A stretch of DNA of 64,000 nt from Ulota crispa. Lineage: Eukaryota > Streptophyta > Bryopsida > Orthotrichales > Orthotrichaceae. The translations under genes and the position numbers were made by a program. This document shows positions 5,241-48,612 of the stretch, piece by piece; the first letter of the stretch is position 1; each line of letters starts with the position of its first letter. The stretch is from contig OY987248.1 of assembly GCA_963920765.1 (NCBI GenBank), forward strand, positions 5,366,539-5,430,538, written 5' to 3'. The notes below the pieces were generated by a model. The model had not been told where the DNA came from and ran no database searches. It saw nothing but the letters and a program-made list of their open reading frames with translations.

Positions 5241-5399
5241 TTTTCGATTCTCACTAGTAGAAAACTCCTTCCAAAACAACAGAAAACCAACAGTTTCTTG
5301 TTGATTTGGGCACTTGTCCACGCTAATTGACTAATTTAACAGAATTCTATAAAAAACTAAATACGTTCTGTTAATTTGGACACCATTATCTAAATCAAC

Positions 5400-7300: not shown

Positions 7301-7711
7301 GGGAATTGATATGTGTACCACACTCTTCCAAATACTATACCACACCACAGGGTAAATTTTAGATTTCTACCATCAAAAAGCTAAATTTGAAAATTTTGGA
7401 TTCAGATTTGGACTTAGAGACCATGGTATTGTCTAGAACCATAAAAAAAGTTGCAATTCAACAACCCCCAATGAAAAAGTTTAGTTAGGGAGAAAATTGT
7501 TAATTTTACTTTTGTTTGTAAAAAAAGATAAGTTTTATCATTGGGTGTTGTTGAATTGCAACTTTTTTTATGGTTCTAGACAATATCATGGTCTCTAAGT
7601 CCAAGTTTGAATTCAAAATTCTCAAACTCAAATTTTTGATGGTAGAAATCTAAATTTACTCCAAGGGTGTGGTACAGTAGTTCAAAGGGTGTGGTTCACA
7701 TATTAATGCCC
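7301..7711. repeat. foldback (long-palindrome) repeat nested in CACTA copy A
   Basis: A 411 bp near-palindrome starts GGGAATTGATATGTG and ends with its degenerate complement. The arms match for most of their length around a short centre near 7505. The same unit is in CACTA copy B (43116-43528) and stands alone at 47699-48133, so it is a separate mobile family that entered the CACTA ancestor before that ancestor multiplied. There is no coding capacity. Confidence 0.8.
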
Positions 7712-9256: not shown

Positions 9257-10342
9257 TCAGTCCCGGGCTTCCTCTTTTCCCAAGACTGTTTCTTCCATCT
9301 TCATGGTAGCCGAAATTGAAAGTGGCCTAGAGGGATTTGTGGGGCACTTAGCTCTGATATATCCTAATTTGCCGCAACCCCAACATCGCCCATAGCGTTG
9401 ATACTCTAGCCTTTTCGCTACTGTTTTTGCCAAAGCTTGTATGGCTCGAGTCGCGTTAAGCTCTATAGGCATTGGGCCCAAATTTGCTTGAGACCTTGCA
9501 CTTAGATTATGGAAAAAAGCGGTTGGAACTCTAACATTTTGGGAATTGGATTGTACCCGCCAATTTTGCCGTCGGTCCCATGGCCTCTCATCAATCCAGG
9601 ACACCATTGCCATCCAATCTTGAAGTCTTTGTGGTTGGGTCTCTGCGGTGGCTATGGAATCCAAGATCTTATCTTTGAATTTTCCTCAAAACCGAGCCAC
9701 CAAACTAGCTTCATTCCATTTGACTTGAGCGACATATTCATTAAACGTAGAAATATATGATGCCGCCGAACCGGTTTGCCTAAGCCGACCTAAACGGTTT
9801 TCTGCGTTACCTTGTCTATCCAAATCACCGTAAACCCCAATAATGGATTTCCAAAAAGTATCATAGTCCATCAACAGCTCATGATCACGTTCTTCATCAA
9901 GGGCTTGCAAAAGTGGCATCGCCCAATTTTGTGCAGCTCCTGTCATATATGAAAGAGCATAAGCGATTTTATCGGCATCAAAATTATAAATGCGTGGCTT
10001 ACCTCGGAATACCAAACGCAATTGTGCAAGCCACCGGTACACGTCGTTACCCTTCTTTCTGGAAAACTTATCTGGTTTTGCTACTTTTGATTTTTTTATA
10101 TGAAATCCATCACCTCGAGGCTCTTCCATTCTTCTTGGTGCTCACCCTTCTTCCCCAGATGTGGATGACGCTACCGGTCCTGGCCCCAACGTCGCACGCT
10201 CTGAAAGTTCTTGCACCAAGTGGAGGATCGCCGCTTGAAACACATTTTGAATTTGTTGTTGTACGAATGAGGCCAACTCCGACCCCACCCCTTCCGGCAT
10301 TGTAAATCCTCGCGGATCTCTGGCTACGTGCTCACGATCCAT
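9257..10342 (-). pseudogene. gag of the Ty3/gypsy element with three in-frame TGA codons
   Basis: A single frame runs from the ATG at 10342 to about 9250, broken by TGA near 10142, 9686 and 9257. The middle contains the plant gypsy gag core (KPDKFSRKKGNDVYRWLAQL, then YDTFWKSIIGVYGD). Near the C-terminus is a zinc-knuckle relic CWGCGKLGYIRAKC, in which the His of the CCHC pattern is replaced by Tyr. All three TGA codons could derive from CGA by C-to-T change. Confidence 0.85.
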
Positions 10343-11890: not shown

Positions 11891-13995
11891 GGTATGGGCC
11901 TTGTTAGCTATGAGTGGTTCCACGTCAAGGGCCACTTTACACTAGGAGTCAAGGCCATGAAAATTGAAAACTTAGGGACATTTTAACCAAAATTTTGGCT
12001 CACGTGGCCACATGTAGGCCCCAAGTGCCCATTATATTGCAAGTATAATGGGGGCTAATTTTCTTGTGTGTAAAGACCTTAACTCCTAAACACCCAAAGG
12101 GGTAGGGTAAAGCATAGATGCATTTTAAAATGATACTTTTGTAACTTTGATGGAGTTTGGTTCTGAAGTTAAAAAATTAAAGTTGCATTTTCTATGTCAA
12201 ATTGTACTTTCAAATTAGTGATATTTTTCATGTAGCCCACACCCATTTTAATGTTGTAAATATTGACCATATATAACAGGGTGTGATAGAATAGTTCCAA
12301 AAGGGGTGATACATGTATCAATTCCTTTCTTTTATAATAGCAACACCTTTATAAAATGTAAGAATACCAAAACTTAGGAGCTATGTATAGTATGTCATAT
12401 GTCCCACAATTCATATTCTGCTAAAAATCTCAAAACTCGATTGGTTGAGAGCTAAAGGCTAGAACTTGGAGCTTCACAACATGTCCCTAAACCCACGTTC
12501 CAATTCATTTCATTTTGCTTGTATAGCATTACAATTGAAAGTATTGGCGTATGAAAGTGGGACTCCACGCAAGGTCAAGATTGACCCTTTTGCTAATTAA
12601 ATCCAACTTCTAGCTCAAGTGCCGCCAATATTTTTGCGTAAAATATATATTTTTTCTTTACTACTCATTTTTGCCCTTAACAACAACTCAACTAAACCAG
12701 GATCTTGCATTGAGGTGAGATTTGCGTGCAAAGGTGGGGTGTGGGACGTAATGTGCACCACCCCTCAAAAACAATGAAGACAATAAGTATATGTTTACAA
12801 GTAACATTTACAAATGGGACTACAAATTAATCAAAAGTTCTACCATTGTTTATTCAATTCTTCATTAAAAAAAGAGGGTAAATATCATCAAATTAAAATT
12901 TGACTATTTAGCACATTAAACAATATTTTTGCGTTACACAAAAGCTAATTATGAAATTCACATCTAGGTATATTACAAGTCCAAGGGGAACCTTCAGTGC
13001 AATATCAAAGCATCTCCACCACACGCTAAATGTTTACATCTACTTTGAAAGTACCCTCAAATTTTTTGTCCCCCATCCTTGTTCACCAAATGTATCTCAA
13101 ATAATAATCAATCACGTAATCAATGGATCAATCACCAAGTGAAATACAAGATGAAGCTCACTAAGCTTAAGATGAATATTGTTTTGAAGTGCCACTAAGG
13201 TAGGTGCACCCATCCTCGTCATGTCCCCATGGGCGTTACCTGACATTGTCAAGAACTAACAAATGTAAATTAAATGGTTATAAGTAACTAAGAGATAATT
13301 ATGGGTGACAAAATGATGGTTGTGAGTGACTTGCATGATGGTTTTGAGTACCCAACTCACTTTATAAGAACCAACAAGCCTTGTTTTTAGCATCTCTTAC
13401 ACATGGTTCTTACAATTTCAGTGATTTTGGACTTTAAAAAATCTTTGTGAACAAATGCTTACAATTGAAACTTTGAGATTGATGCCAATATTTTTGGTTT
13501 CCACTTTCTTACAGTATTTTTTCAAAGTTAGTCAATTATTTTACCTACTCCAAAACCGTGATTTCCACGCTTATGGGTGTGCCTACCTTACTTGACACAC
13601 TACAATTGCATGCTATGAGAATAGTTTGAGACGCCAGGAGCACTTATCATCCAAGTATAGGGTATCACATCCTTAGCGCGCAACGGTGGAGATGCTCTCG
13701 TTTCCTGGACTCCTCAAAACCACTGCAAGGTTTTGTCCTCTCTTTCGCTCGCTTCGGGCTTTTCCGGAGCTTTAAGGTTTCCGGGCTTTGGTCGATGCTC
13801 TGCTAGCACAGCCACGATCGCCACACCGACGCACACTGCCACACTGCTCATCTCCAGTTCACAGCACTATTGCAGGTCTGCAGAATTTTTTCTAGGATCA
13901 CAGCTATGGCGTAAGCAAAAAATCAAGGCGATCCATATTGTTCACAACAGAGGGAGTGTCAGGATTCCCTCCCTCTGTCTTTTTTTACCTTCCAA
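11891..13995. other. intergenic stretch upstream of the CCDC47 gene
   Basis: Mostly AT-rich DNA without recognisable genes. A degraded half of the foldback family appears near 12280-12335 (GGGTGTGATAGAATAG, then ATGTATCAATTCC). From about 13690 the composition turns GC-rich, probably the promoter and 5' untranslated region of the CCDC47 gene; no core promoter element could be assigned. Confidence 0.4.
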
Positions 13996-15396
13996 ATGGT
14001 GGCAATGGTGGCAAGGGTGGCGATGGTGAAGCGATCCTCGACGAGGCGCAGCAAGCTCCAGACATGCACTCTGCTGGTGCTGGCATGCATTATTCTGGCA
14101 AGTGTTACGTTAGTGAAAGGCAAGGAGGAGCTCGAGGGTTTCGTCGAGGACGAGCTCGACAACGAGGAGCTTGAAGCGCCGTACGTAGCGCCCTCGAAAT
14201 CGCGAGCTTCAACCAAACCGAGTGCCGATGTGGAGATAGACGAGGCCATCAGCAGCAAGCCGGTAGTGGAGCCACGAAGTCGAAAGGTGAATTCGCTCGA
14301 GTATTGGGACGAGGACGAGTTCGAGGGTTTGCCCGTGCAAGAAGAGCCGGAGACCGACTCTACCACCACGCCTGCTGCCGGATTAGAAGAATCCATTGCA
14401 GGAGCGTCAAACGTTGTTACGAAGCGAGGCCCGTACGCGCTCTATTTCGAAATAGCAGGTGTGCTCTTCTTCATCATTTACGGAATAGTCTTCTGGCGTG
14501 GACGCAAAGAGAACGAGAGCATCGCTATCGCATGGGCGACGGAGTTCGCAGGCACGGATTCCATCATGGAGAAGAATTTCAGCTGGTTAGGGTTTGGCGA
14601 GGACAAGGATGCGCCTGCTTTATTGAAAGAAAGCCAAAGTAGTTTCAAGTTTTACGCAAGTGGACGACGTTACTGTGAGTCTCTTTTAGCAACAATCGTG
14701 CTCAAAAACCGTCAAGACCTGCTATCTCAGTTAATGTACTTAGTCCTTCCTGCCAATGACGAAATCACCTTTCAAGTGAACATGAATGAAGACGCCATGG
14801 AACCTGTAGTGTTCGCGTTGGTGAAGAAGAAAATTGCGAAGGATGTGCAGCGAGACGTGAAGGATTTGCAGCAGTTCGCAACAGTGTTAACCCCGCCTTC
14901 AAACAGGAAATGGATAACTGAGGATCTCGCCGTGATTAGCGAGTCTCGTGATTTGGCTGTAGATTTGTTACCAGAGGTTTTGTTAGACCAGGTGTTTGGA
15001 GAGAAAGCTTTTGCAGCTTTTGCCCCGTATTTCGTCAACCTACACTTTTCTGATCAGTTTCTAGAGTCCAACCACAAAAAGGTGTTGCAGTTCACGTTCC
15101 ACATCCCGCCAGTGGAGAAGTTGGCTGAGATGAAGCGTCTCGTTGCTCTTGTTCCGTATTTCATTGATGTTATGGGACGGTACAAAATGGGCGCCAGTGC
15201 GAAGAGTAAAGCTACCGCCATTAGGGAAAAGCTTCGAGCTGAGGAGTACAAGGAAGCTACGAAGGTCCGAGTTGAAGCTCTGCAGAAGAAGAAGTCCGAG
15301 CAACAAACGCCGTTGTCCAGTAAAAAGGAGGAGAAGGAGCGGTTGCGGCAGCTCAAGAAATCCATGCCCAAGGTCAAGATGTCGAGAGGCCACTGA
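13996..15396 (+). CDS. CCDC47: CCDC47 (calumin) family ER membrane protein
   Basis: Complete 466-codon single-exon gene. In animals CCDC47 is part of the PAT complex that chaperones multi-pass membrane proteins at the ER translocon; plants have DUF1682-type homologues of similar length. Visible order: hydrophobic signal segment (about residues 21-40), acidic lumenal stretch with clusters of Asp and Glu (43-120), one transmembrane helix (about 148-167) followed by WRGRKENE, the conserved cytosolic DUF1682 body (175-400), and a Lys-rich coiled tail ending KVKMSRGH. Four in-frame Met codons crowd the start; Met10 (14023) is as plausible as Met1 because the preceding residues are a GTGGC-repeat translation. 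No intron is needed to complete the family. The assignment rests on remembered family features; length and topology fit. Confidence 0.88.
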   Translation: MVAMVARVAMVKRSSTRRSKLQTCTLLVLACIILASVTLVKGKEELEGFVEDELDNEELEAPYVAPSKSRASTKPSADVEIDEAISSKPVVEPRSRKVNSLEYWDEDEFEGLPVQEEPETDSTTTPAAGLEESIAGASNVVTKRGPYALYFEIAGVLFFIIYGIVFWRGRKENESIAIAWATEFAGTDSIMEKNFSWLGFGEDKDAPALLKESQSSFKFYASGRRYCESLLATIVLKNRQDLLSQLMYLVLPANDEITFQVNMNEDAMEPVVFALVKKKIAKDVQRDVKDLQQFATVLTPPSNRKWITEDLAVISESRDLAVDLLPEVLLDQVFGEKAFAAFAPYFVNLHFSDQFLESNHKKVLQFTFHIPPVEKLAEMKRLVALVPYFIDVMGRYKMGASAKSKATAIREKLRAEEYKEATKVRVEALQKKKSEQQTPLSSKKEEKERLRQLKKSMPKVKMSRGH

Positions 15397-19713: not shown

Positions 19714-22700
19714 TCACTGATATAATTCCTTCCCAGCTTTGAACGTACTCAAATCGTATATGATTGTAACATCTTTCAAAGCATCCTTTTCTCCCTTCTC
19801 TCCTTTAGCATTCCCGCCCCAAACATGGATGCTCAACTTCCGGCGACTCGGCGAAGAACTGTCGAAATACTTGGAAAAGAAATCCACCACGTCTTTCTTC
19901 TCAAAGCTCATGATTTCAGCTGCTTCCAGCTTCCTTGCGTCAAACAAATACCTACAAAGCACACACACCAATTCATCATTACAACTTTTAACCCTTAAAC
20001 GTCGGGCTAGTCATCATGACTGCTCCCTACAATAATGCTACAATGGTATGAAAGGTGCCCACACATTATGATACTATTTCCAAAAGTCAACAATGCATGT
20101 TGCCCTCCATGAAAATCGCAAAAAGGGCAACATGGAACCTTAACACCTTGTTTGTGAATCTTCTCACAATTTGAGTTACCTATAAATGTGAGTGCATTTA
20201 GTGAGGCTGTTTTTATCTTCAATAATGGACCATTACTGCATGATCACTCATAGAAAAATGGATGAAAAAGGATACTTTCCATCCTACAGAGTATTTTTTG
20301 TCATTCATCAGACAAAACCTGTCCGCCTGGCTGTTTAAGGGTTAAAAACTAGTTTGTCAATACACATTAAACTCATATTTCCAAAATGAAGAATGCACTT
20401 TCTCCTGAACTACAGTGGAATGGAAATCAAAACCTGAAACACAGGTTTTACGTGAAACACTATTGAACGAGAATGAGTTCATTGAGCTACTATAGTGCAA
20501 GACACCATAAACCAACAAATCATTGGCCAAACATGTCAAATAGTTGCCAACTTTGAATGCCAATAACTTTTTTTTGGCAAACAACAGTTCCAATCTGTTT
20601 TTGTAACTTTTACCCTAAGACTCTTCCTGCTTATAGTTACAAGGAGTTTCAACTTTGAGGGGTGCTACGAACAGCTCAGCTCATATGGTTGTTAGGTCTT
20701 TGCTGGTTTATGCTCTCTTGCACCATATAATCACCAAAAAACATTATAACAAAAAAAAATAAGACATTTGAAAGTGCACCTTTGATCCCAAATCTGTTCC
20801 CAATGGCGATCGGTTTCGTCCAACAAAGAATGGTCTCTCTCCAGCTTCTCTTCAATCAGTGCTTCCTTGTAGTTGTTAAACTCGTCATCATCAACATCAT
20901 CCTGTACAAACATAATAAGTGCTAGGATATTACCCAGTGGACGATGATGCATGGTTTCAAATGCTTACAGTAGGAGCTATAAGAAACAGATGAAGCACAT
21001 CCAAGTATGCTTAGAAAGCAAGTTTTATCTATTCTTCAACTCCGTGATTAGTTCGATCATTAGATGCTTCATGATCATTGTGGCAAGGCTTTAAATCAAT
21101 TCATGTAGAGATGGAAGAAGAAAAAAAACACAAAATAAAAATTGCAAAAGGTGAAGATATCGTTACCAGAATTTTGGAAAAGGAGGTCACAAAAGCATTG
21201 ATGCGCTGCTCAAGGTGCCCTGGGTTATACTTTGCAGACTGCACCCGGAAACAGAAACCCAGAATCTTGTACGTGACTCGAACACCACAGTCTACCCGGT
21301 ATCCCAACTGTTCCTTGGTTCTCAGTTGATTAAAGCATGGCTCTTGAGTCATTTGTTCAAACAGGTCCATAAGGCTCCGGATTCGTAAGGACTCTTTGCC
21401 TAAATCCTTCTCCAGTTGAAAATACATCTGTACAGGCCAAAGAAAGTTTTAACATGTTTACATGCAATGGGCCTAGAAACCTGCTACAACAAAGACACTT
21501 AAAAAACCTGAAAAATCAAAGAGGCAAAAGGGTGAGTTTTACCTCCACAACCGAGTTTTCCTCAGCATCGTTCTTCACGGTAGCAGTGTACAGAAGTGCA
21601 CTACTGGGGTCCAGTTTGACAATCCGCTCAACTGGCCTTGATTCCGCAGGCAACGGGTCTTTCACTAACAACTGTTTGAACACGTTGGCAATACCAAGAG
21701 CCTCCTCCTCATACAGATTTCCATGACAAAATGCTTCAATGTACGTCTGCAAGACACAAAGAAACAGGCATGTCAAAATCCTCAGTTCTACCAACGTCAC
21801 AAAAGTTCAAACTTTTTGCAGTTTAATTGTATCCATTCACTTATATTACGGACACCCGTGTCTATAAAATATAATCTAGGACAATTCCATCTACGCTCTG
21901 GGCTTCACTAAGTCCCCTTCAGCTATTGAAGGATTTCCTTGTAGTAGCCTTTAATGCAAAACCTCCCAAATCCAAAGGGTCCAAGATCAGGTACCTTGTT
22001 GAAGAGACGAGGGATATGTTTTGCAACATCAGAAACAGACAAGGTCAACAGACACGCAAGCTTGTCATCCACATGCCAAAACCGTTCCTTCAATGCTTGC
22101 AACCTCAGATACGCAGAATGCTTTAGAGGTTTCATGTTCGTATTCCTGTATCCGCGCTCCAAATCCTCCTTAATAACCTGGCATTGTAAAAACATCCAAC
22201 TACATGTCAAACACAGCCCACTTGCAAAGCAAAGCATTACAAAAAGGTAACTTTGTGTACTGACGGCCCGTAACAGCAGAAATACACTATATAACATCAT
22301 CTACTCAACCGAGGAATACACGGTCTGAGATCCTTGACGTTTAAGTTCTTAAAATAAATAACATCATTTTGCAGCTGAGAGACCATGAACCCAGAAAACT
22401 GCAATAAAATGAAAGAAGTGAAAAAGAAGAAGCGGATAGTAGATTCTAAAATGACCTGGAACCGATCTTCTCTAGGAACCAGAGAGGTCAGAAGTTCAGC
22501 AATTTTGCTAGCGAGCACGGGTAGCTTCTCATTAAACCCATGGATCTTGAGATCCAGTTTGTCGCCGCTGAAAGCCAAGGATGACTCCAGCTTGGCCACA
22601 TTTGCCTGCAATCAAATGAAAACCAGTAAGAAAACATGTTGCAAGATCGTACCAACAACGAGGAGCGTGAGTGCTTATAAACCAACTACTCACCAGATAA

Positions 22701-25700
22701 ATGGTTTCATTGAGCTCATGCTCAAGCATCTTGACATAGATCTCCGTCAATACAATACTGCGAATGTCCTCGCTTGCAGCTTTGCATGTAACTGAGAAGA
22801 AGGTGTTGGCACGAGGGGTATTGAAGGTACGATCAAGCTTGTACCACACTTTCAGGCCTGGCTCATCCAAGAGTACCCTTGGAACAACATCCTGACCCTC
22901 CGTAACATCAGCTTTCCCTGTTTTAATGGTGAAATCATGTGGAATGAAAGCATTCACTACTGGCATCTGTAGAGCAGGATCTACATGCTTGGGATCTGCC
23001 CACTGTTTCAGAATCACGTCGGAGAGTATCTCCACAGTGTATGGCACCTCAAACCAAGGCTCCAACTGAACACCTGCCATCACAACAAGTTTCATTGAAG
23101 TCACGACTCTAGCAACACGCGTGCCTTAAAATAAACTAAAATAACTAAAACTACAGAAGCAATGTAACCTGAACGTGAACATGAAAACGAGCTTCCATTG
23201 AACACAAAAAATAAAAAACAGCAGCAGCAGAGGATGTTACCAGCATTATTTTTGTCAAAATTCTTTGTGACAACGTCAAGGCGCATATTATATGGATTGA
23301 CTCGATCAATAAGATCAGCCACTAGCTCCGGATCCCAATCCTCAAACGCATAATCTCCATACACGGTGTGCTCTTCAGAATACAGGTGCATGTTTGCTGT
23401 AGTCCCAGAAAACAGGGAAAGTCAATAAAAACTATAGTGTCGCAAAAAAATCAAATAAAAAGATTCACAAAACCTAAACCTAAACCATGACAATCAGGTA
23501 GTACGTAGTATGTTCACATAAACAATTGAATCCTGATACAGAAAACCTGATTGAGTTTGAGAAAGGAGGTTATATCCAAAGTATTCATACATGCAAGGCG
23601 TACAACATATTGATCTGCAGATTCTTCCTCAGCAAATCGAAACTCCATCATGCCCATCGCTTGGAGCTCCTCAAATACCCACTTCTGAGGCCCAGTGGTT
23701 CGGAGCATTTTCACGTACTGATAGAGCATGCCGACAACGTCCAAGACCTGTAACACCCCATTTGCTGTATAAATTAAGACATCTTGCAGTAAAAAGCACA
23801 GGAAACTAAACATTGAGCAAAAAAAATCTGAACAGAAGCAATCCAAAGGAGAGTTGCATTCATGGCCTAACTAGTCGATGTAATCTTTTGTACAAGGAAA
23901 AACAGAAAAATAGAGGTTCTATGAAAGGGTTATAGTTGCAACTAGAAAAATTCTTCCAGAAAAACAAGTTAGCTTACAAAATATAAAAAGTACAACACAA
24001 AAGGACACAATTGCTTAGGCATTTACGTGTTCAACGCCAGAATCAGTAAGCGAGATGTTGACAGAGAACATGTAGCCAGCTGAGCTGTGATCATAGCCCC
24101 CATCCCCAACTCCAGCGGAGAGCCCTGTTGCCCAGCTCTTCTCCTTCAATAGAGATAACAAACTTCCAGCACCCTCTGATACATAGCAGCAATACAAGTC
24201 AATCTACTGTTCACAGCACAAAATGGTTATAGAGACCATTTTTCATACTCTCGGACATACGTTCAAAAGGTAGCTTATAAGAAAAGAAAAAAAAAAGGAA
24301 GGCTGAATACATAACCTTACATTCATAAAAGGGGATTCTCGTAAAGAATGTTTCACCGAACCAACAAAACAAAAGGAAGCTTGGATTAGGGAGATACCAT
24401 GGCCAACGAGGTGGGAAATGTAGTCCTGGGGCTTTTTCAAATACGCCGCTTCAAGACAAGGGAAGGGCCAAGTCAAGGAAAGTAAATGTTGATCCTTCAC
24501 AGATTCAATCCTGTAGAAGGATCCTGGCTCCCAAACAGGGCCATCCCAAGGGAATTTCAAAGGTGTAACACCACCTTCTTTCACTTTACCAAAAAACTCC
24601 GTCACCCACGTCTTCAAAGTCTCCAAAGGCTCTATTACATTCGTTAAATATAAAAGCCATATTAGCCAGCACTCATATGCAGAGTCACATCCACAGCAAA
24701 TTAGCAACTTCATAGCAACTACGCATAAAAATCTCCATTTTAAAGGAGTGCTGGCTCCTAAACACTGTACAATGGTGCTTGCCAACTATTCAACAAGCTA
24801 CCAAAAGATTCTAAAAACAACATATGATGTGGCAAGAGAGATTGGGTGAGGTCTTACCACCCACCTCCACCAAGGACAGTTAGTTTCATGCGACTCGCCA
24901 AGTAATGATCTTTGTAGAGCTGGATAAGCTTTCCTCTCATATCCACACCCCTTTCCATAGGCTCGCCCAAACTCTTCTTATTGCCTAAAAGAATCACGTC
25001 AAACATATGCATGAGCCGCAGGCTTCATTTTATAATGATTGAGAAACATGATGGTGGTTAATCACACTTGAACACCAGAAAGTCATAAAGAAAGCGTTTC
25101 CTCTGGAGCATTTACACCAAAGAAACCTTCACATATGATAATAAAAAAGGACCTTTTCCAATAACAAACTAAAAAAAAAAAAACCAGTTGTCTTCTAGAC
25201 TTCCAGTTCTACAGCATGTTATTAGTTTTTGGTTGGAGAGATGGCCGAGTGTTTTAAGACAATGAATTGGTAATTCTTGTACATTTTTTGAGTTCTTTTT
25301 GCGGATGAGATTTAACGATTTCGTGTGCCTGGAGAGAGACATAGCTGCTGAGGGTGATATTATTATGAAACAATTAAGTAGTACAGATCTCTAGATAGTT
25401 CTCGATTATACATTTATAGAATGGAAAGAAACAGAACAATTATGTACAGGAAACAAGTGGGAAGATCAGAGCTTTTATTTCAAATTTACTCTTTTCATCG
25501 AGTATTTTTTCTTTTTTTCAAATCTAAACCCTTAAAACTTATGTGTTTAGAATAAAATGTAAATGCTGTTCATTTAGATCCAACTATTTCTAGTTCTTTT
25601 GATACTCAAGAAACCAAAGGTGAATTTTTTGTTCCTTTTATTATAGCTATTGCCGCCGCTGAAGCGGCTATTGTTTAAGCTACGTATCGTATCAAAAAAT

Positions 25701-28764: not shown

Positions 28765-31383
28765 ATGAGTGCGAGTTGGCATTCGTTGCTGGTGCGCATT
28801 GGCGAGCGATGTCCCGAGTATGGAGGACTCGCGGACGCGGAGGATCACGTGGAGACGTGCTTCGGCTACCTCGCGCGCGACCTCACGCACAGCAGCAGTG
28901 AGATTCTCGCGCTGCTGATGCAATGCGTGGAGGAGATTCCGCACAAGGACCCGCTCTACGGCGCGCTCGTGGGACTGATCAACACGGAGGACAGGGAGTT
29001 CGTCGGGAAGGTCGTCGAACAAACACACGCGGGGATCCAGGAAGCGCTCGACACCGACAATTGCAACAAGCTGCGGATTCTGACCCGCTTCTTAACCGTG
29101 CTCATGTGCAACAGCGTGGTTTCCCCCGCGTCGCTCATCGAGCTCTACGAGTCGCTCGTGTCGTCCGCGGCTATTACAGTGGACGACGACGGCGGCGGCA
29201 ACCCGGCGTGGCAAGCGCGCGCGGATTTCTACGTCTTCTGCATCCTGGCGTCGCTCCCGTGGGGCGGCGTCGAGCTCTCGGAGCGCGTCCCGGAGGAGCT
29301 CGAGCGCGTCCTGAATGGCGTGGAGGCGTATTTGAATCTACGAAAACCCGTGGTGTACAGCGCACTGCAAGTGTTCGAGAGCACCAGCGACAACAACGAC
29401 GACGTCGAGATGAAGACCGCATCCGACGACTACCTCGAGAACCTCTGGTCCAGCATCCAGGCCCTCATGGAAATCTCGTGGAAGTTAGACAGCGTTCCCC
29501 GCCCGCACATCGCCTTCGAATCCCGACTCGTGAACACGCAGAGCCACGATTTCGGAGCCGTGGTAGTTCCGGACACGCCGAAACCCCCGGAGAATGCAAC
29601 CGAGATAACCCTAGGCCGGCAACGTCAAGACGCCGAGCGCACGTACCCGCGACGCAACATGCGCTTGCGCATTTTTCCTGCTTCAAAAACTGATGAGAAG
29701 ATCACTCCCATTGACAGGTTTGTGGTTGAAGAGTACCTTTTGGACGTGCTGCTTCATCTCAACGGCTGCCGCAAGGAGTGCGCCGCGTACATGGTCGGCT
29801 TGCCAGTGCCGTTCCGGTACGAGTACATCATGGCGGAGACCGTGTTCTCTCAGTTGCTCTTGCTTCCGAAGCCACCCTTCCGGCTGATCTACTACACAGT
29901 CGTGATGGTGGATCTCTGCAAGGCGCTCCCCGGGGCGTTTCCCGCAGTCGTGGCCGGCGCCGTGCGCGCTCTGTTCAAGCGAGTCGCCGAGATGGACGTG
30001 GAATGCCGCACGCGCCTCGTGCAGTGGCTCTCGCACCATCTCTCGAACTTCCAGTTCGTCTGGCCGTGGGAAGAGTGGGCGCACATCCTGGACTTGCCGA
30101 AGTACGCACCGGAGCGCGTGTTTGCGAAGGAGGTGCTGGAAAAAGAGGTGCGATTAGCGTACTGGGAGAAAGTGAAAGACAGCGTTGCATCCACGCCGAA
30201 GCTCATCGAGCTTCTCCCTCCCAAAAACACGCCACTGTATGTATACTCTCCAGAAAGCAAGGGTTTGGTTCCCGAACCTGAGCTTGCGCTTGCCACGGAG
30301 CTCACAACGCTCGTGCGAGGCAAGAAAACGGTGCGCGAGATTCAGGTCTGGATCGACGAGCGAATCCTGCCGACGCAAGCGCAGCAAGCGTCGATACAAA
30401 TCGTGGCTCAAACCTTACTGTACATCGGATCGAAGAGCTTCACACATACAGTAACAGTGCTGGAGAAGTATGGACAAATCTTTCGCAAGATAGCGCCGGA
30501 TCATGCTTCTCAGATCGCCATGATCGAGACCGTCTCGCAGCTATGGCGGAACTCGGCGCAGATGACGGCCATTGTCATCGACCGCATGATGGGGTACCGC
30601 ATGGTGTCGAATCTGGCCATTGTGGCCTGGGTTTTTGGACCTCAGAATGTGCAGCAGTTTCACACCTCGGATCAGGTTTGGGAGATTCTTCGCAACGCTG
30701 TGAACAAAACCAACAACCGCACGGTGGATTTGCGAAGAGAGATCACTGCTGCAGAGAAAGCACTCAAGCTTGCTATTGCTGGAACCACAAAAGCTCATTC
30801 CAAGTGGGAGACGGCTGTGGCGGCTTTGAAGAGCACTGACATGAAGAGTGACGACACTCGGAACTCTTTGAGTGCAAAAGTGGATTGGGCTAAGACGGTT
30901 GCTGACAAAGCTCGTGACGAAGAGACGTCTGCACAGGACTCGCTGGAGTCGAAAGAGGCGCTCCTTGCAAGAGCGTTGCGAGAACAAGAGGCTTTGTTTT
31001 TAGCTGTGTATCAAAGCTTTGCAGATTTGTTGACTGCTCGGTTGTCGATGCCGTTGCCGGATGCTGCGAAGCCCATGGAGGATGTCGATGGTGTGGATGC
31101 TGAAGCACCGGCTGCTGCTGCTCCCATGGACGCTGATGATGATTCTCCCCCGGGTGAAGACGGCTCTGCGAAGAAGGAAATGAACGGTGTTGTCTTGTGT
31201 GCTGATGCAAAGGAGGAGGAGCAATGGCGTAAGTGCACTCTTGGCTATCTCGGTGCCATCTCGAGATTGTATTGTGATGAGGTGTGGCTGTTGATGGAGC
31301 GGCTCGATTCCTCTGTCTTCACTGACAAGGTTCACCCTCTGGTGGTGTCGACAACATACGCTGGACTTCAACGCTTGTCATAG
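28765..31383 (+). CDS. CBP80: nuclear cap-binding protein subunit 1 (CBP80), intronless
   Basis: Single open frame of 872 codons. CBP80 is the large subunit of the nuclear cap-binding complex; with CBP20 it binds the m7G cap and acts in splicing, miRNA processing, export and decay. The protein follows plant CBP80 (ABH1) end to end: an N-terminal MIF4G domain (about 1-240, with RIGERCPEYGG and the IPHKDPLYGALVGL block), the PIDRFVVEEYLLDVLLHLNG linker, the central MIF4G-like domain (about 320-480, with LPGAFPAVVAGAVRALF and WPWEEW), and the C-terminal MIF4G-like domain (about 500-780, with SKSFTHTVTVLEKYGQIF and IDRMMGYRMVSN). Met at 28765 is chosen because MSASWHSLLVRIGE aligns with the family start; an in-frame Met 12 codons upstream is probably leader. 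Flowering-plant genes have many introns, so the single exon is odd. Composition is strongly GC-rich in the first half. Confidence 0.96.
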   Translation: MSASWHSLLVRIGERCPEYGGLADAEDHVETCFGYLARDLTHSSSEILALLMQCVEEIPHKDPLYGALVGLINTEDREFVGKVVEQTHAGIQEALDTDNCNKLRILTRFLTVLMCNSVVSPASLIELYESLVSSAAITVDDDGGGNPAWQARADFYVFCILASLPWGGVELSERVPEELERVLNGVEAYLNLRKPVVYSALQVFESTSDNNDDVEMKTASDDYLENLWSSIQALMEISWKLDSVPRPHIAFESRLVNTQSHDFGAVVVPDTPKPPENATEITLGRQRQDAERTYPRRNMRLRIFPASKTDEKITPIDRFVVEEYLLDVLLHLNGCRKECAAYMVGLPVPFRYEYIMAETVFSQLLLLPKPPFRLIYYTVVMVDLCKALPGAFPAVVAGAVRALFKRVAEMDVECRTRLVQWLSHHLSNFQFVWPWEEWAHILDLPKYAPERVFAKEVLEKEVRLAYWEKVKDSVASTPKLIELLPPKNTPLYVYSPESKGLVPEPELALATELTTLVRGKKTVREIQVWIDERILPTQAQQASIQIVAQTLLYIGSKSFTHTVTVLEKYGQIFRKIAPDHASQIAMIETVSQLWRNSAQMTAIVIDRMMGYRMVSNLAIVAWVFGPQNVQQFHTSDQVWEILRNAVNKTNNRTVDLRREITAAEKALKLAIAGTTKAHSKWETAVAALKSTDMKSDDTRNSLSAKVDWAKTVADKARDEETSAQDSLESKEALLARALREQEALFLAVYQSFADLLTARLSMPLPDAAKPMEDVDGVDAEAPAAAAPMDADDDSPPGEDGSAKKEMNGVVLCADAKEEEQWRKCTLGYLGAISRLYCDEVWLLMERLDSSVFTDKVHPLVVSTTYAGLQRLS

Positions 31384-40343: not shown

Positions 40344-40719
40344 TTAACCCCTAAACGTTTGAGAGGACAAAAATCGTCCTTTCAATGCCAAAAAACACCT
40401 TAAGTGTGGAAAAAAACTTTTTTTTAATTTTTGTGTTTTGAAAGTGGTCACAGTGATGTGCCACATCACTAAATGCCAAAAATAGCCGCTTCCAATGCTT
40501 TCATCTTTTTTAAAACACCATTTTGTAAAGAGATGTACAAAGTCCCCTGCTGCCCTTTTCAAAAGGGCAGCATATACTATTGACTTTTTATTCTTTTAAG
40601 AAGAATATTCTCTTTAGTGGGCACATGCCATACTCTATTTGCTGCCCATGAATAGTATATTTTCCTTGGTTAGAGCCCCCAGTTGGCAGCGGGTTTGAGG
40701 CTTGTCCTTTAAGGGTTAA
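40344..40719. mobile_element. TTAA-bounded MITE, copy 6
   Basis: A 376 bp unit starts TTAACCCCTAAACG and ends with inverted GTCCTTTAAGGGTTAA. It is only 24 bp from copy 7. No coding capacity. Confidence 0.55.
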
Positions 40720-40743
40720 ACCACAAAACGTAACCAATATCTG

Positions 40744-41650
40744 TTAACCCTTTAAGGACCACGTGACCATATTTTGGTCACTGGGAGTGGTTTTTGGCAT
40801 GTAGGTTGAAATCGCTCAATAATTTGGAATTTGGTCTCAATGTTTGCATGTGATCACAAGAATTTTGCATCCATCTAAAAAAATAACAATGTAATTGGGT
40901 ATGTGAGTTGATAAATAATGGTGGCATGGCTTCAAAATACATATCCGATTTTTGTCAAAGATGGATCAAAGCAACAACACAATACATCAAGTATGCAAGA
41001 AGAATGTCAAATTTCAATTGCACAATTCCAAAAAAATTCAACTTGCTTAAGAAATACGCTTGTATTGTTTTCATATATTGTAGTAGTATAATTGTAGTAT
41101 TTGAAGATCTACTGAAACGTTGTTGTCATTTTGGCTTTAAAATTTGTCATTCTACATTTAAGGCCAATTCTTGATTGTTTTCACCAATTGGATTTTCCAA
41201 AATAATTATCAAATTTCTTGTAGAACCGTTTTAGTGTAGCAAAGAAAGTGGGTTTTTTGACCATTTTTACCCACTTAGCTACACCTTGTGATTGCTATTT
41301 TTGTTTATTTTGTGTGAAACTAGTCTTGTTGGAAAGGTGGGAAACCCTGCTTTCTAGAAATGTAAGGCTATTCTCAATCAAAACTTGCATGAAAGGTTAA
41401 CATTCAAAATTAAACAAGAATGAAACACAAGAGATTTTCCGCATACGGCTCACTCAATCATTATAATGTTTCACCTCCAACGGTAGATCTAGGTGAAATT
41501 TTGGTGCTTTACAACAAACAAGGTGTACTTCCCATTTGTACGGTTGAATTATTGAAAATGGGTTCATATTTGAGTCAATTCCAAATCTAAGCTTATAGCC
41601 CTTGTTTTTAGTGGATTCTGTGAAAATGGGTGTGGTCGTTAAAGGGTTAA
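40744..41650. mobile_element. TTAA-bounded element, copy 7
   Basis: A 907 bp unit with ends TTAACCCTTTAAGGACCACG and inverted TGGTCGTTAAAGGGTTAA. It is the longest member of the family here. The 88-codon frame inside (40908-41174) shows no transposase motif. Confidence 0.6.
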
Positions 41651-42227
41651 CAACCAAAAGGGCATATTTGGCCCCCCTCTCAGCACAATCGAGTGATAGA
41701 ATCTGCCAATTTTTATAGAATTGGCCAAGCAGCATATTTGTGCCAAAATTGCCACATACGCCACATATAATATATATACATTGTATATACAATGTATAAT
41801 TTGGGATACGACATCTTCATGAGTCAATTACAAGAAATGGCGTCATGCTGTAGAAAAATGCAGAGCTAAGAAATTCAGTGCAGATCATTGATAAAAAGCT
41901 ACAATGAATTTTTCAGATGGTATTGAATGAAGAAATCTATACAAAATTGATTCAATGTGAATCTCCTACTCTCGAGTGTTGCAAAATTATTCTAAAACTA
42001 AATACTACCAGGATCACAAAGCAACAGCCTTTTGCTAGAAGACTATGTTGACACAAAAAAACTACTTCAATCAAGTATTAATTGTAGCAGTAGCACCAAA
42101 CTTATTCAATTTTCTACTCTTGCTATACAAATGTGCTAAAACAAACTACCATCATCATGTGCTAAATCTACTTCAAAGAATTATTTGGAGTCATAGTACC
42201 AAAAAGAATAGAAACTACGGTAACTGC
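41651..42227. other. intergenic stretch between a TTAA element and CACTA copy B
   Basis: AT-rich, with a small AT palindrome near 41776-41796 (ACATTGTATATACAATGT). No gene recognised. Confidence 0.4.
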
Positions 42228-42464
42228 CACTAGTAGAAAATTCAGCACAAAATCAACAGAATTTCAACCAAAAACTGTTGATTTTTTCTGTGAATTTGGT
42301 CAAGTTGATTTGGGTACTTTTCTGTTGATTACTTACAATTTTCTGTTAATTTGTTGTTGATTTCTACTACGTATTTTATGTTGTTCAATTCTATTTCTTT
42401 TCATTTTTAAATTTTTTTTTCATAGAATTTGTTATTATTTTACGAAAATGTGAACTTTTTAGGG

Positions 42465-42600
42465 GGATGGGCAGCTGCCCAAACTTTTGGGGCAGCTGCC
42501 CGAACTTTTCCGGGCAGCTGCCGACAGCGAGGTTTGAACCCTCCACCTCTCCTCTCACATTCCACAACCTTAACACATTCTCAAAACCACTAGAGAATGT
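42465..42600 (-). repeat. GGGCAGCTGCCC palindromes and tRNA-promoter-like segment in CACTA
   Basis: Two perfect GGGCAGCTGCCC palindromes (42469-42480, 42490-42501) and one degenerate (42512-42523) precede, on the minus strand side, GGAGGGTTCAAACC, which fits a pol III B box (GGTTCRANNCC). Copy A has the same region at about 8230-8335 with fewer perfect palindromes. It may be a captured tRNA or SINE piece. Confidence 0.4.
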
Positions 42601-43115
42601 GCAAATGCACATGCATACATTAGAATCTTAATTCTATTTGTACATTAAATGTTCATGTCTTTAGTAATCCAGTAGACTTTGGAGGCTATTTCCGCCCATT
42701 AAAAGATTTTTTTTCAAAAAACTTAAAACTAAGAAAAATTGATAAATGTGTTTTTCTTTCACCTCCAACAATTCTTTTTGGACTTCAATCTTTTTATCAA
42801 AAGTTATGAGCTAAAATCAAAGAAGGTGTTTAGAAATTTTAAATAAATTGTTTATTTCCATCCTTTTGATTTTGTTTATAATTTTTTTTTGGAATTCACA
42901 AATCTCATAAGGATTGTTGCAGGCAAAGGTTGGATTCATTAATAAATATTATTTAGTGTTAGTTTTTTTGTAAAAAGAACCTTATTTTGTTAAAATAGCC
43001 TCTATAGTTTGATAGCTTCAAATAACATGATGTCGTGAAAAGTTACGAAATTAAATCCTTGCAATTATAAAATCAAAATTCTATTGACTTTTGAATAGTT
43101 TTGGATATTTTGTAA

Positions 43116-43528
43116 GGGCATTAAGATGTGAACCACACCCTTTGAACTACTGTACCACACCCTTGGGGTAAATTTTAGATTTCTACCATCAAAAATTTGA
43201 GTTTGAGAATTTTGAATTCAAACTTGGACTAAGAGACCATGGTATTGTCTAGAACCATAAAAAAAGTTGCAATTCAACAACACCCAATGAAAAAGCTTTT
43301 CTTTTTTTACAAACAAAAGTAAAATTAACAATTTTCTCCCTAACTAAACTTTTTCATTGGGGGTTGTTGAATTGCAACTTTTTTTATGGTTCTAGACAAT
43401 ACCATGGTCTCTAAGTCCAAATCTGAATCCAAAATTTTCAAATTCAGCTTTTTGATGGTAGAAATCTAAAATTTACCCTGTGGTGTGGTATAGTATTTGG
43501 AAGAGTGTGGTACACATATCAATTCCCA
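43116..43528. repeat. foldback repeat nested in CACTA copy B
   Basis: A 413 bp near-palindrome homologous to 7301-7711 and 47699-48133, at the corresponding position of the CACTA element. Confidence 0.8.
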
Positions 43529-44389
43529 TCTTTTAAAGCTTATAAAAATATTTTATAAGATTGTTTTTTTTTAATTCATTTGGTTAGTAATAGAAGGAAA
43601 TATACTAAAAATACCCTTTAAGTCTTTCAAAATATCAAGTTTTCGCTGAAAATATGTGAAACATAAAAAATAGTCCTTATTTTTTGTAGGAATATCAATT
43701 ATACTCCTATTATTTTGGAAAATTAATAAAAAACTCTTCTATTTTGAAATGTTAAATATATCCTTGTGTTATTTGAAATGTAAAAATCACGTTTGGTTTC
43801 TTGTAAGAATTTGCATTAAACTATACACTTGGTTATCATGTAATACAAAGATATTTTTGGTACTTTTAATCCTTAAGGGACATTTATGCTTTCTTCAAAG
43901 AACTGAGGAGCATCATTTATATTTGTTTGTAAAGAAATTTTGATATTTAAAACAACAAAATGTTGTAATTTTTATATAAAATTTTGTTGAATTAGTGAAG
44001 TTGTGTTCAAAAGTATGTAGATCAACAAAAAAATGTTGAATTTTTTGTTATTATGGTCATGTTTTTACTTGACTTTAAAGGCTGCTAAGTTTAAATCTTA
44101 CCAAATTGTGAAAAGTAAAGAAAATAAAACCAGTCAATGTACACTCAAACTTCTAAAAGATTCTTTTTTTTAGAAAACTTCTTTTATTTTTTAAAACTTC
44201 AAAAAAATTTAATGAGGTCCAAAAAGATTTTAGAAAGATATAAAAAAAAAACCTAAACTATTGTGATAGTTTTTTTGAAAGTATTTTGATGATTTACAAA
44301 AAGATTCTTAAAGGACTCTAATTCAGTCGAAGAGATTCTATTTCTATAAGTATTTTGAAGTACTTTAACAAATTCCATAAAGATTTTAA

Positions 44390-44840
44390 AAAGATTCTCA
44401 AAGATTCCAAAAAGGTTCTTGAAAATTCTTAGAGATTTTCAAAGATTTTTTGAATTTCAAAAAAGATTTTCAAAAGATTTCCAAAGATTCTCAAAAGATT
44501 CCCAAAGATTCTCAAAGATTCTCAATTGTTCTCAAACATTCTCAAAGATTCCAAAAAAACTTGAAAAGATTCCCAAAGATTCCAAAAAATTCTCAAAGAT
44601 TCCTAAAAGATTCTCAAAGATTCTCAAAGATTCTCTAAGATTCCAAAAAAACTTAAAAAGATTCCAAAAGATTTCCAAAGATTCATGAAGATTCCTAAAA
44701 GATTCTCAAAGATTCTAAAATCTCAAAAAGATTCTTAAATATTCTTTAAAATCATGAAAAGATTCTCAATGATTCCCAAAAGATTCTTGAAGATTCTTAA
44801 AGATTCACAAAATATTCCCAAAAGATCTTCAGAAGATTCC
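44390..44840. repeat. short-unit tandem array inside CACTA copy B
   Basis: About 450 bp of degenerate AAAGATTCTC units, the reverse complement of the longer array in copy A. Confidence 0.9.
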
Positions 44841-45186
44841 AAAATTTCTGTTGATTTAGATAATGGTATCCAAATCAATAGAACGTATTTAGTTTTTTAC
44901 AGAATTCTGTTAAATTAGTCAATTAGCGTGGGCAAGTGCCCAAATCAACAAGAAACTGTTGGTTTTCTGTTGTTTTGGAAGGAGTTTTCTACTAGTGTGC
45001 GTCGGGAACCATTATTTAAATAGTGCACTTCTTCAAATTCCCTTGAAAAGTTGTGCTCCCAACTATACAAGTACTTGTCACATTATATGTAGGTCCTACA
45101 AAAGCTCCATGATTCTACATCAAACTAGTAACCTCATTGAAGACATTATTATGCTCCCAAAAATCCTCATCACTAAGATAAGATAG

Positions 45187-47051
45187 TTAATTACTATTTG
45201 AACAAACAATTACAACTTGACTATTTGATCCTCCAATAGAATTGGTAGTTGTTGCACACAACTTTTGTGGAGACATAGCTGTAGATAGTATGGGTGCTTC
45301 TGTAAACAACTTCCTTGGAGAAGTTCCTTCTGCTGTAGTGGTTGATGGCATAATTGCTGAATGACTATCACCAAAATTGGGAGCACTAGCTATACAGAAA
45401 CCTTGGAGTTGTTTGAAGCAATCTTGTTCAAACTTCAATGCAGCCTCCCACAGAACATCTCTACCAGTACCGGGCATTGCCAAAGCGACATTTTGAAGAG
45501 CTCTCATGATAATTCCATCCAAATCCACGTCATAACGCATGTAACCTTCCCTAGAAGTATGACATGTCATTCTCATTCCTAATTTGGGAGGCACTCCCAT
45601 GACATTGAATTGGCATATTGTGGTAACCTTTGCATTCTTGTTCAAATAGTTGCCCTCATGTGCACCAAGGAAGAGAAGCAATCATCATCTTCAACCACTT
45701 TGCTATTGCCTTAACTCCTACTCTCTTATTTGCATACAACACTCCAAGTTCTTTCAAGTTTGCATGATCATTGATAGCATGTAGGGAAAAATGATGAGGA
45801 GGCGGTTCTTTATCAATCCATTTCGGCCAATGAGACATGTATGTCTCAAATGTTTGAACAAGGTCAAGGTGATTGCAATTGACTGAGAGCCTCATTTTTC
45901 AAGGTGGCAATGAAGTAGGTCAACTTTGTGATTCAATGTCTCCATCTCATCAAACCTGATATATCTACCATTGAGATTATCTTGGCATATTGTGAAGTCG
46001 CAATCCAATATGTTATAAAGCTCAGTTTGTGCTCAAACACAAAAATTGTGTATAACATAGTAAGCTACTCGTAACCCACAACCCCTTTGGTCAGTTTTGC
46101 ACATAATTGGAGATGCTAGTAACAGTTGTCCCATTTCATATGTGAGAGGAGAGGTGATTTTTCTTTTGCAACCTATCCATGCCTTCACAAATCTCTTCAC
46201 AGCAATTAAACAAGACACACACACTTTTTTTTGAAATATGGAACATCAATGATGTAGAACTTCTCCGCCACTTTCTTACTTTCTATAGAATTGGCCTCTA
46301 ATTTCCTCCAAATCATTTTGCCAATAGCACAAAGCATAGTCACAAGAGTTTCACTAGAATATACTTTTCTATCCTTACATTGCACTTCTAGCATGAATTG
46401 CAAAAGCAACTTGACAAGCTCACCGAGGCGATAGAGAAACATATCCTCAATAGGATCCATGTAGGAACAAACATTGAGCTTTTGCCAATCATCAAATCAA
46501 TTCCTTGTCCAGTGCTCCATGTTGATTGATTTACGCAGGCCTTTGTTTTTCAGCTGTTCTACCTTTTCAAAATCCAATTGACAAAATCCTTGTCTAAGTA
46601 ACTCAAATTCATTATTTGTCTGATTAGAATCAATTGCATTTTGCAGATCATGAATCACCTATTCTTCAATCAAAATATTCTGAGCAATGGCGCTCAAATT
46701 ACAAGTGTTGTTTGTCAACTAGTCCGGTTCATCAGCAAACTTGTCAAAATCAAGAATGTCTTCAATGACAGAATTGATATTACTATTTGAATCCAAAATT
46801 GCAGTCTCAACTACACCAAACATATCTTCAAAATTTGGTTCATTGTAAAAAGCAACAGCTGTATTGGCTTAATATGCAGCAAACGCCAAATGCAAATCGT
46901 CCTCTTCTTCATCACATTGATCTGTGTAGGACATGAACAACTCCAAATCGGCACCAACATGAGATTTTTTCAATGCAGGTGACCTCTTATAAAGTAGATT
47001 GGAAATATCTCCTAAGATTGCATGAGATGAGCTCTCCATCGTGAAGAACAA
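45187..47051 (-). pseudogene. Crypton/DUF3504-like tyrosine recombinase relic
   Basis: One minus-strand frame runs from the ATG at 47051 to 46206 with internal stops (TAA, TAG, TAG, TGA); two frame changes then lead to 45187. Reading order: an acidic N-terminal region; RKSINMEHWTRN then FDDWQKLNV, like the SAM-like core-binding start of DUF3504 proteins; LGELVKLLLQFMLEVQCKD and SSETLVTMLCAIGKMIWRKL, matching their LxxWLxKFVLEVRkKDG...YPPNTLYQLCCGLQRYLR pattern; KRKITSPLTYEMGQLL; DFTICQDNLNGRYIRFDE; VLYANKRVGVKAIAKWLKMM, like the linker before the catalytic C-terminus; then NKNAKVTTICQFNVMGVPPK and TSREGYMRYD, which fit box II (NHSlRaTaatrLfqaGVP...SlegLrhYe). The expected Arg is Lys and the final Tyr is present. 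It is a decayed gene; no terminal repeats were seen. Alternative: another phage-integrase-like family. Confidence 0.6.
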
Positions 47052-47272
47052 AACAACTCACTGCGGCAACAACATAAATATGGGGAGGGAAAGCACAAGA
47101 AGAGTGTGCAATCATAGGGCTCGCCTTTTGACTGCTTACAGGGCAGAATCAACCCTTTCCTACCCTTTCTCTAATACATAGCAATCTAGCTACAATGATT
47201 GTGAGATGGTCATATTCAACTAAATATAGACTTTGTAAAACCCATAAATAATAATAAAAAATAGAAGTCAAC

Positions 47273-47528
47273 AACACCATATTAGGTAATTTGAGCAAAA
47301 GGGTACTTTTTGGGACTTTTAGGTTCTAGGTGATCACCTTAAACCAAGCTCAAGGTTTTCTTTTTGGTACACGTGCCCTAACCTGAGAGGAGGAATTTGT
47401 GAGGGAAAAAATCTTAGTGGCTCACACTAAATCTAATACCTTCAAATTTGGTTTAAGGTAACTTTTTGGGTTTAAGGTGGAATACAAAATGGTACCTCCC
47501 TTTTGCCCAAATTACCTAATATGGTGTT
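47273..47528. mobile_element. foldback MITE with AACACCATATTAGG ends
   Basis: A 256 bp unit starts AACACCATATTAGGTAATTT and ends AAATTACCTAATATGGTGTT. CAAC flanks both sides, a possible short target duplication. No coding capacity. Confidence 0.7.
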
Positions 47529-47698: not shown

Positions 47699-48133
47699 GG
47701 GAATTGATATGTCTACCACACCCTTTCAAGTATTGTACCACACCCTTTCAAGTATTGTACCACACCCTTGGGGTAAGTTTTAGATTTCTACCATCCAATA
47801 ATTGAATTTGAGAATTTGGAATTTAGATTCGGACTTAGAGACCGTGATTTAATCTAGAATCATAAATAGGTTCTAATTGAACAACACCCAATCAGAAAGC
47901 TTATCTTTTTTTATAAACAAAAATAAAAGTAATGCTTTTCCTCTGAGCTAAGCTTTTTCATTGGGTGTTGTTCAATTACAACTTTTTTTTTATGGTTCTA
48001 AACAAAATCACTGTCTCCAAGTCCAAATCTGAATTCCAAATTTTCAAATTCAACTATTTGATGGTAGAAATCTAAAATTTATCCCGGGGGTGTGGTACAA
48101 TACTTTAAAGGGTGTGGTAGACATATCAATCCC
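47699..48133. mobile_element. free-standing copy of the foldback repeat family
   Basis: A 435 bp near-palindrome starts GGGAATTGATATGTC and ends GACATATCAATCCCC. It is homologous to the units nested in both CACTA elements and shows that the family moves on its own. A short duplication (CACCCTTTCAAGTATTGTAC twice) lies in the left arm. Confidence 0.75.
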
Positions 48134-48612
48134 CATACAAGAATAGTCCATGTTTAGATCCTAAGAGGTTTTTTGAAAGAACATAATTTGGTTTTGCAAT
48201 AATATTTAACAACTGTTACAATTTTTTTTAACAGATTATTTTAGTGAGAATCAAAACATGTGAACATTCTCATTACCTTTTTTTTCTGTATCATATGCAT
48301 AATGCAAAATTTGAAATCTATTTAGTTACTAGCACATAGAAAGGTAATTCACCAAAAACATAGAATTCTTTAATTTCGGGAAATGCTTGATTTTGGGACT
48401 TTTGAGTTCTTACATTTTCAAAAGAGTACATATTGAATATTCTTGAAAGGCATAAAACCCAAAAGTCCCCAATTACTTATTTTCCCAACTTAGGGAATAT
48501 TGCGTTCAGAATTCCTCTACGTGAGTGATTATCAAGTCAATATAATAATATGTAGATGCTTGCCTAAAATTTATACTTTTGAACATGAAACAATTGAAAC
48601 CATAAAAAATCA

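Follow-up and report, generated by a model that had tools for sequence, protein, structure and literature searches.

The window, by which we mean the whole 64,000-nucleotide stretch analysed, carries on its minus strand a dead Crypton-like gene that can be followed by frame reading and profile comparison from position 47039 to 42168. Its N-terminal part (46500–47039) begins with an ATG at 47037–47039 and contains in-frame stops at 46869–46871 (TAA), 46719–46721 (TAG) and 46659–46661 (TAG). A fourth in-frame stop (TGA) lies at 46497–46499, and one frame otherwise runs from the ATG to 46209. The core-binding domain is represented by 46209–46496, which matches positions 26–119 of a profile of the family (E 1.1e-18) and gives a weak match to QRICH1 (E 0.023). 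Past a first frameshift, a middle piece at 46036–46245 (profile positions 116–180, E 2.2e-11) leads up to box I, where a TGA at 46033–46035 occupies the position of the catalytic arginine; two relatives (L048 and L051) have arginine at this position, and the copy on contig C8 has CAA. The reading continues at 45895–46032 (positions 182–226, E 5.7e-9), then, past a second frameshift, at 45659–45898 (positions 228–308, E 2.2e-9) and, past a third, at 45190–45681, a piece which includes box II to the tyrosine (positions 313–368, E 1.9e-7) and a C-terminal extension. Within this last piece NKNAKVTTICQFNVMGVPPKLGMRMTCHTSREGYMRY, at 45532–45642 by coordinates derived from the reading frame, holds box II with lysine in place of arginine, a histidine at +23 and a tyrosine 9 residues further. 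A TAA follows at 45187–45189, where the C8 copy reads through. The C-terminal tail goes on from there (44998–45186, LSYLSDEDFW...NLKKCTI, with stops inside), resembling the tail of L003, until it meets an inserted element; beyond the insert the last codons, TVVSILFGTMTPNNSLK followed by the stop (42168–42221), resemble DATTIASMLFGALTPNNSLK in L003. In total, three frameshifts and no fewer than six in-frame stops interrupt the relic, one of the stops falling precisely on the box I arginine. Its box I arginine has become a stop and its box II arginine a lysine, while the catalytic histidine and tyrosine are kept.

The first-pass annotation had placed such a relic at 45187–47051. It does lie there, but the gene is larger, running past 45187, being split by the insert and ending at 42168. 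The whole element shared with the C8 copy extends over 41672–47176 on the minus strand, as determined by blastn and by alignment of the ends with L002 and L003; these ends are approximate. Without the insert it measures ∼2.7 kb. The C8 copy is 85–86% identical to the relic over two stretches and has an insert of its own (∼730 bp) and a deletion of ∼1.05 kb. An Rfam search gave no match.

The insert in the tail of the relic (42228–44997, no strand assigned) is 2770 bp long, has the terminal inverted repeat CACTAGTAGAAAA (13-bp ends) and is flanked by the target duplication TGC (42225–42227 and 44998–45000). We take it to be a CACTA-type element. The C8 copy lacks it and has an uninterrupted TTGCGTC at the homologous place. 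Near one end of the insert lies a minisatellite (44390–44843, AAAGATTCTC), and the same minisatellite was found at L039:5489–6001 on contig C2, adjoining another family member. The same ends (CACTAGTAGAAA) delimit a second CACTA-type element, with an apparent target duplication TCT, at 5252–8576 of the window, between the gag-like (9689–10141) and RT/integrase-like (1951–4568) frames of a Ty3/Gypsy-type element. It contains a long TTTGAGAATC minisatellite (5406–6437) like that in the insert of the relic. Long tandem arrays close to their ends seem to be a feature of these CACTA-type elements.

Other features of the window were also recorded. The end of a very high-copy repeat (40718–41650; 2111 candidates) lies directly beside the 3′ end of the relic, and a 91.6% identical copy of it is present in L048. 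A MITE-like element lies just upstream of the relic (47273–47528), its inverted ends being 31 bp long and 97% complementary, and a larger palindrome is present at 47699–48134. One open frame of 871 codons (28768–31383) encodes the nuclear cap-binding protein CBP80, the nearest PDB sequences being CBP80/nuclear cap-binding subunit 1 (E 3e-95); its neighbours are CCDC47 (13915–15393) and an M16 peptidase (22535–23125).

The profile with which the relic was detected combined 35 exon pieces, all from other loci, and contained no rows from the window. Five colinear pieces between 46496 and 45190 were matched in profile order with E values of 1.1e-18 to 1.9e-7, against a next best of E 0.47 among 2802 frames and a best of 0.59 in the reversed window. 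All five were still found (E 7.3e-13 to 0.0079) when five pieces from the nearest relatives (L048, L051 and L055) were removed from the profile. The order proposed from a first inspection, a core-binding-like start, a DUF3504-like middle and a catalytic-like end (NKNAKVTT...VPPK...TSREGYMRYD), is present on the minus strand in these five pieces. A six-frame search of the window for the motif NKxx[RK]x22Hx8Y, which was defined after the fact, gave one occurrence, and 30 Markov shuffles taken together also gave one. Searched on its own against Pfam, the whole read-through of the relic matched 0 families at E ≤ 10, and the best single piece was the QRICH1 match already given. Such weak direct scores and the broken frames might suggest a similarity due to chance or a contaminated assembly. 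Five colinear pieces at E ≤ 2e-7, together with loci that occur on each of the ten large contigs and in one case inside a high-copy host repeat, leave either explanation a negligible probability.

We searched the genome (274.8 Mb in 157 contigs) for relatives of the relic. With the protein of locus L006 as the query, 44 matches were obtained, the weakest at E 2.1e-4, and these were grouped by position into 23 places. The L048 protein added three loci and the L038 protein none, giving at least 26 loci on contigs C1 to C10. Stops are present in 25 of the 44 matches. Twenty loci were fetched and read together with the window copy and the C8 copy, four loci being left unfetched; no intact copy was found among the copies read. 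Grouping by pairwise similarity, which is not a tree, places the relic with L048, L051, L055 and the C8 copy. The other clades recognised in this way comprise L037–L045, L047, L049, L050, L053 and L054, with L046, L052 and L056 left outside the grouping. In one clade the breaks between matched blocks fall at like places and probably represent shared introns. For alignment we used A4; A2 and A3 were dropped, exons being scored or placed worse in them. The same genome contains six matches to the LEAFY SAM domain (best E 1.2e-27) and 14 to dirigent (best 3.3e-25). These two families mark land plants and their near kin; the host is therefore a land plant, in agreement with the plant-like genome suspected at first.

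In order to determine the kinship of the family, 37 of its pieces were scanned singly against Pfam. DUF3504 was matched by 9 of the 37 (best E 2.5e-6), QRICH1 by four (best E 0.0018) and Phage_integrase by one, from L043 (E 0.006, profile positions 111–169 of 172); each of five further families was matched by a single piece, with E values of 0.027 upwards. None of the matches to recombinase profiles passed the Pfam cut-offs. For DUF3504, the best piece scored 28.1 against a cut-off of 29.7, which no family piece scanned reached. In a whole-genome search with DUF3504 the relatives scored 27.4 and 27.2 bits, under the same cut-off, and the relic was absent from the matches; no DUF3504 matches were obtained in any of 14 control genomes. 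Among PHROGs, an integrase was matched by one of the 37 pieces (3.7e-5), a second integrase family scored 0.11 and 16 other single matches were 0.027 or worse. Only chance matches came from NCBIfam and from separate searches with the L048 and C8 pieces, and the family profile gave one chance match and nothing credible among PDB sequences. In viral contigs, patterns for the L006, L048 and A5 queries matched 2, 2 and 88 stretches, none of which was confirmed; plasmids searched by tblastn gave no match. The profile check suggested at the outset thus has a divided outcome: the relic alone has no significant match, which taken by itself would have counted as a refutation, while its relatives match DUF3504 and integrase profiles. 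The reading as a Crypton-like recombinase draws its support from these relatives in the same genome, all of them below the Pfam cut-offs.

Catalytic motifs were picked from tblastn output. In XerD, XerC, FimB and FimE of Escherichia coli the box II arginine and the histidine are separated by 23 positions and the histidine and the tyrosine by 9. The same spacing of 23 and 9 was found in all nine family copies compared, including the relic; the residue at the arginine position from which the spacing is counted is lysine in the relic, histidine in L038 and threonine in L056. The catalytic histidine is present in 16 of 16 copies read and the tyrosine in 13 of 14, and the arginines of box I and box II in 10 of 17 and 11 of 18, respectively. 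Box II starts with lysine in every one of the 18 copies read, so that the tetrad is R-K-R-Y, compared with R-H-R-Y in Cryptons. Lysine at this place is also found in type IB topoisomerases. By hhalign the family profile and the four E. coli recombinases are in register at boxes I and II over most of the length, at an E value (0.065) and probability (0.85%) that are not significant; A5 gave nothing in this comparison.

The box I arginine has been lost in 7 of 17 copies, where the codon is TGA, CAA, TGT or, in four copies, CAT. A single transition in a CGN codon suffices to give each of the seven, as would be expected from the decay of methylated CpG. L037, L038 and L041 share CAT (histidine), which may be a single inherited change.

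Three copies, L040 (C2), L047 (C6) and L050 (C9), are related over ∼5 kb, at 71–93% identity depending on the stretch, and stop together at ...GTGCTTAAC in unrelated flanks. When the last 874 bases of L047 were used as a query, nine matches were found: L047, L040, L050 and L060–L063 all end at the terminus, and two others are internal only. The seven termini read are CTTAACAA in five cases, CTTAACGT in one and CTTAAAGG in one. L060–L063 hold 84–126 bp of the 3′ end, comparison with L050 finding nothing more within 1.5 kb. At the 5′ end, L047 and L050 both start with TATA[AG]TGGGAG, which is altered in L040. Near the 3′ limits of L037 and L038, which belong to a diverged clade, GGGCTTAA(T/C) was found by eye, and GGCTCAAT near that of L042; by eye the motif is absent in L049 and L053. 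Defined ends of a mobile element thus hold for the L040/L047/L050 group, and those of the relic are limits of similarity with one other copy only.

An exact empty site was obtained for L047, whose flank is a high-copy host repeat. The junctions read CATTTTTG-TATAATGGG...GTGCTTAACA-AATGC, and three other copies of the repeat have the uninterrupted site CATTTTTG^AATG, as CATTTTTGAATGC in two and CATTTTTGAATGT in one. These sites are paralogous, not orthologous, to that of L047. The comparison allows a target duplication of no more than 3 bases, one of them mismatched, and no inverted repeat; neither a terminal inverted repeat nor a clear target duplication is seen at L047, and the 4–6 bp terminal direct repeats known from CryptonF and CryptonS are not seen there either. 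No empty site was found for L050 or for the relic, the 3′ flank of the latter being the repeat with 2111 candidates and uninformative. L040 (C2:16.10 Mb) is flanked on either side by an 85-bp direct repeat, 83/85 identical (98%); it may be a target duplication, of which L047 shows none, or a repeat of older date.

The ends also bear on whether the recombinase moves the element at all. It might be a passenger, or another transposase might move these elements by ends of another class. An imperfect subterminal inverted similarity near TTAAG, weak and seen by eye, would fit this, as would the four loci that hold 84–126 bp of the 3′ end alone (compared with L050, within 1.5 kb). The lack of terminal inverted repeats and of a clear target duplication at L047 argues against it. 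So do the recurrence of GGGCTTAA(T/C) near the 3′ limits, read by eye, in the diverged L037/L038 clade, which has the same gene, the recombinase as the only coding content recognised and the purifying selection between old copies described below. We regard a passenger gene as very unlikely.

L047 is 5.24 kb long with both ends, and no frame in it exceeds 105 codons except the two of the recombinase; its main open reading frames have no other recognised coding content. No reverse transcriptase or DDE transposase was found by Pfam in the main frames of L047 and other members, and the family pieces scanned gave no match to GCR1_C or C48 peptidase. This bears on a further alternative, a tyrosine-recombinase retrotransposon (DIRS, Ngaro or the DIRS type linked to ALOG) that has shed its reverse transcriptase part. 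Such elements share with the family a tyrosine-recombinase ancestry, and the ALOG domains of streptophytes descend from one according to the available text of PMC3537659, which suggests that streptophytes once held DIRS-type elements. Here the frames over 105 codons of L047 are recombinase only, no reverse transcriptase occurs in the frames scanned, and the family matches DUF3504 and QRICH1, not ALOG. This origin appears slightly less probable still than a passenger gene.

Selection was estimated as dN/dS in 15 pairs of copies, with stops left out. The ratio is 0.09–0.32 in eight older pairs and 0.53–0.56 in the three pairs within L040/L047/L050; two pairs are saturated. For the window copy and the C8 copy it is 0.86 (dS 0.135, 120 codons) and for L044 and L045 it is 0.92 (dS 0.05). 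L040 and L047, at dS 0.153, give 0.54, so that the trend to 1 in young pairs is not uniform. We read the pattern as constraint while the elements were active and drift after insertion. The L038 copy (L038:3285–6016; C2:5520284–5523015) has long open exons, histidine at both catalytic arginine places and low dN/dS against its relatives, and is a candidate for domestication.

The low dN/dS between old copies (0.09–0.32 in 8 of 15 pairs) could also reflect a domesticated host gene family of the DUF3504 type, like WOC/ZMYM or KIAA1958, spread by gene duplication, with the window copy as a pseudogene. The introns apparently shared within one clade, the histidine codon CAT common to L037, L038 and L041 at box I and the long open exons kept in L038 would agree with such a family. 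Common ends in unrelated flanks and an exact empty site would not, nor would stops in 25 of 44 matches or the fact that, of the three youngest pairs, two have a dN/dS close to the neutral value. Moreover, the histidine is kept in 16/16 copies and the tyrosine in 13/14, whereas the tyrosine is gone from all domesticated DUF3504 genes as far as the accessible text of PMC3212892 states. A host gene family consequently seems improbable, though less so than the passenger and retrotransposon origins. Because the catalytic histidine and tyrosine are kept and element ends and an empty site exist, 'Crypton-like transposon' fits better than 'DUF3504' in its domesticated sense.

We conclude, with a probability of about 0.8, that the relic in the window is a dead member of a multi-copy DNA transposon family of Crypton type in a land-plant genome. 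The protein family, the catalytic spacing, the dispersed copies with common ends, the selection pattern and the decay of the window copy are all shown here, as is the one exact empty site, which belongs to the related copy L047 and not to the relic. An intact element of this kind would be ∼2.7–5.2 kb long and hold one gene for one protein, with introns apparent in some clades. The predicted protein would consist of an N-terminal part, the core-binding domain, a catalytic domain (box I arginine, box II K-x-x-R, histidine at +23 and tyrosine 9 further) and the C-terminal tail. By the mobility that we infer to be encoded by the element, the recombinase would bind the element ends and cut with its tyrosine. 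The ends would then most likely be joined into a circle, whose integration at another site through strand exchange would leave neither inverted repeats nor a target duplication from a staggered cut. After its insertion the window copy decayed almost neutrally, its box I arginine changing to TGA and its box II arginine to lysine, and gained the CACTA-type element.

Among known systems, the family is nearest in form to CryptonA and CryptonI, with which it shares a tyrosine recombinase as the sole recognised protein, low copy number and the absence of terminal inverted repeats. It differs from them in its land-plant host, in the lysine that replaces the first box II histidine and in a C-terminal tail common to both groups. 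In the available text of PMC3212892, animal Cryptons have no terminal repeats, as in the plant family, and dead Crypton copies contain other inserted transposons, like the relic. The same source gives TATGG termini for most CryptonS elements, and two plant copies begin TATA[AG]TGGG. Unlike CryptonF and CryptonS, the plant pieces have no GCR1_C or C48 peptidase match and L047 lacks a terminal direct repeat of 5–6 bp; such repeats, present in fungal and stramenopile Cryptons, were not observed in the plant family. To the animal DUF3504/QRICH1 genes (WOC, ZMYM2-4, QRICH1 and KIAA1958) there is profile similarity over both domains, below the cut-off. These genes have lost the catalytic tyrosine and the second arginine (PMC3212892, available text), in contrast to the dispersed plant family, with the tyrosine in 13/14 and the box II arginine in 11/18. 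A green-alga mitochondrial DUF3504 gene, a candidate Crypton derivative in the accessible part of that paper, resembles the plant family as an occurrence of DUF3504 in the green lineage; it is an organelle gene of a chlorophyte. The DIRS/Ngaro and ALOG group shares tyrosine-recombinase ancestry, but the plant family has no reverse transcriptase or ALOG match. XerC, XerD, FimB and FimE share the Arg-23-His-9-Tyr spacing, with HxxR there and KxxR in the plant family; the profile comparison with them is not significant.

Cryptons are listed from fungi, animals, oomycetes and a diatom in the available text of Kojima and Jurka 2011 (PMC3212892), whose Table 1 has no plants and whose tree places a Chlamydomonas element under 'Plants'. 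A survey of 2015 counts Crypton among the superfamilies present in every group that it covered, and these groups include land plants (PMC4438587, available text), and a repeat table for Dracaena cambodiana gives 24 Crypton fragments of 1,719 bp in all (PMC6294377, available text). The accessible texts of PMC11630846, PMC8969392, PMC8226300, PMC3537659 and PMC9406493 describe no land-plant Crypton family, the last only defining Cryptons. The initial statement that no well-described land-plant lineage is known therefore stands as far as these open-access texts go, in which no described family was found, and needs qualifying for the tabulations in PMC4438587 and PMC6294377. Such elements are hardly described from land plants.

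A more far-reaching interpretation is a distinct, long-resident land-plant lineage of the Crypton type with a KxxR box II and integration without terminal direct repeats, which has perhaps been a source of host genes (the L037/L038/L041 clade, with its shared box I change and low dN/dS). We put this forward tentatively, as rather less likely than not to be right. The KxxR variant of box II is of interest to enzymologists. Tyrosine-recombinase transposons have a gap in their distribution that a plant family with element ends, an empty site and copies of widely differing age would close; such a family would also make their rule of integration testable.
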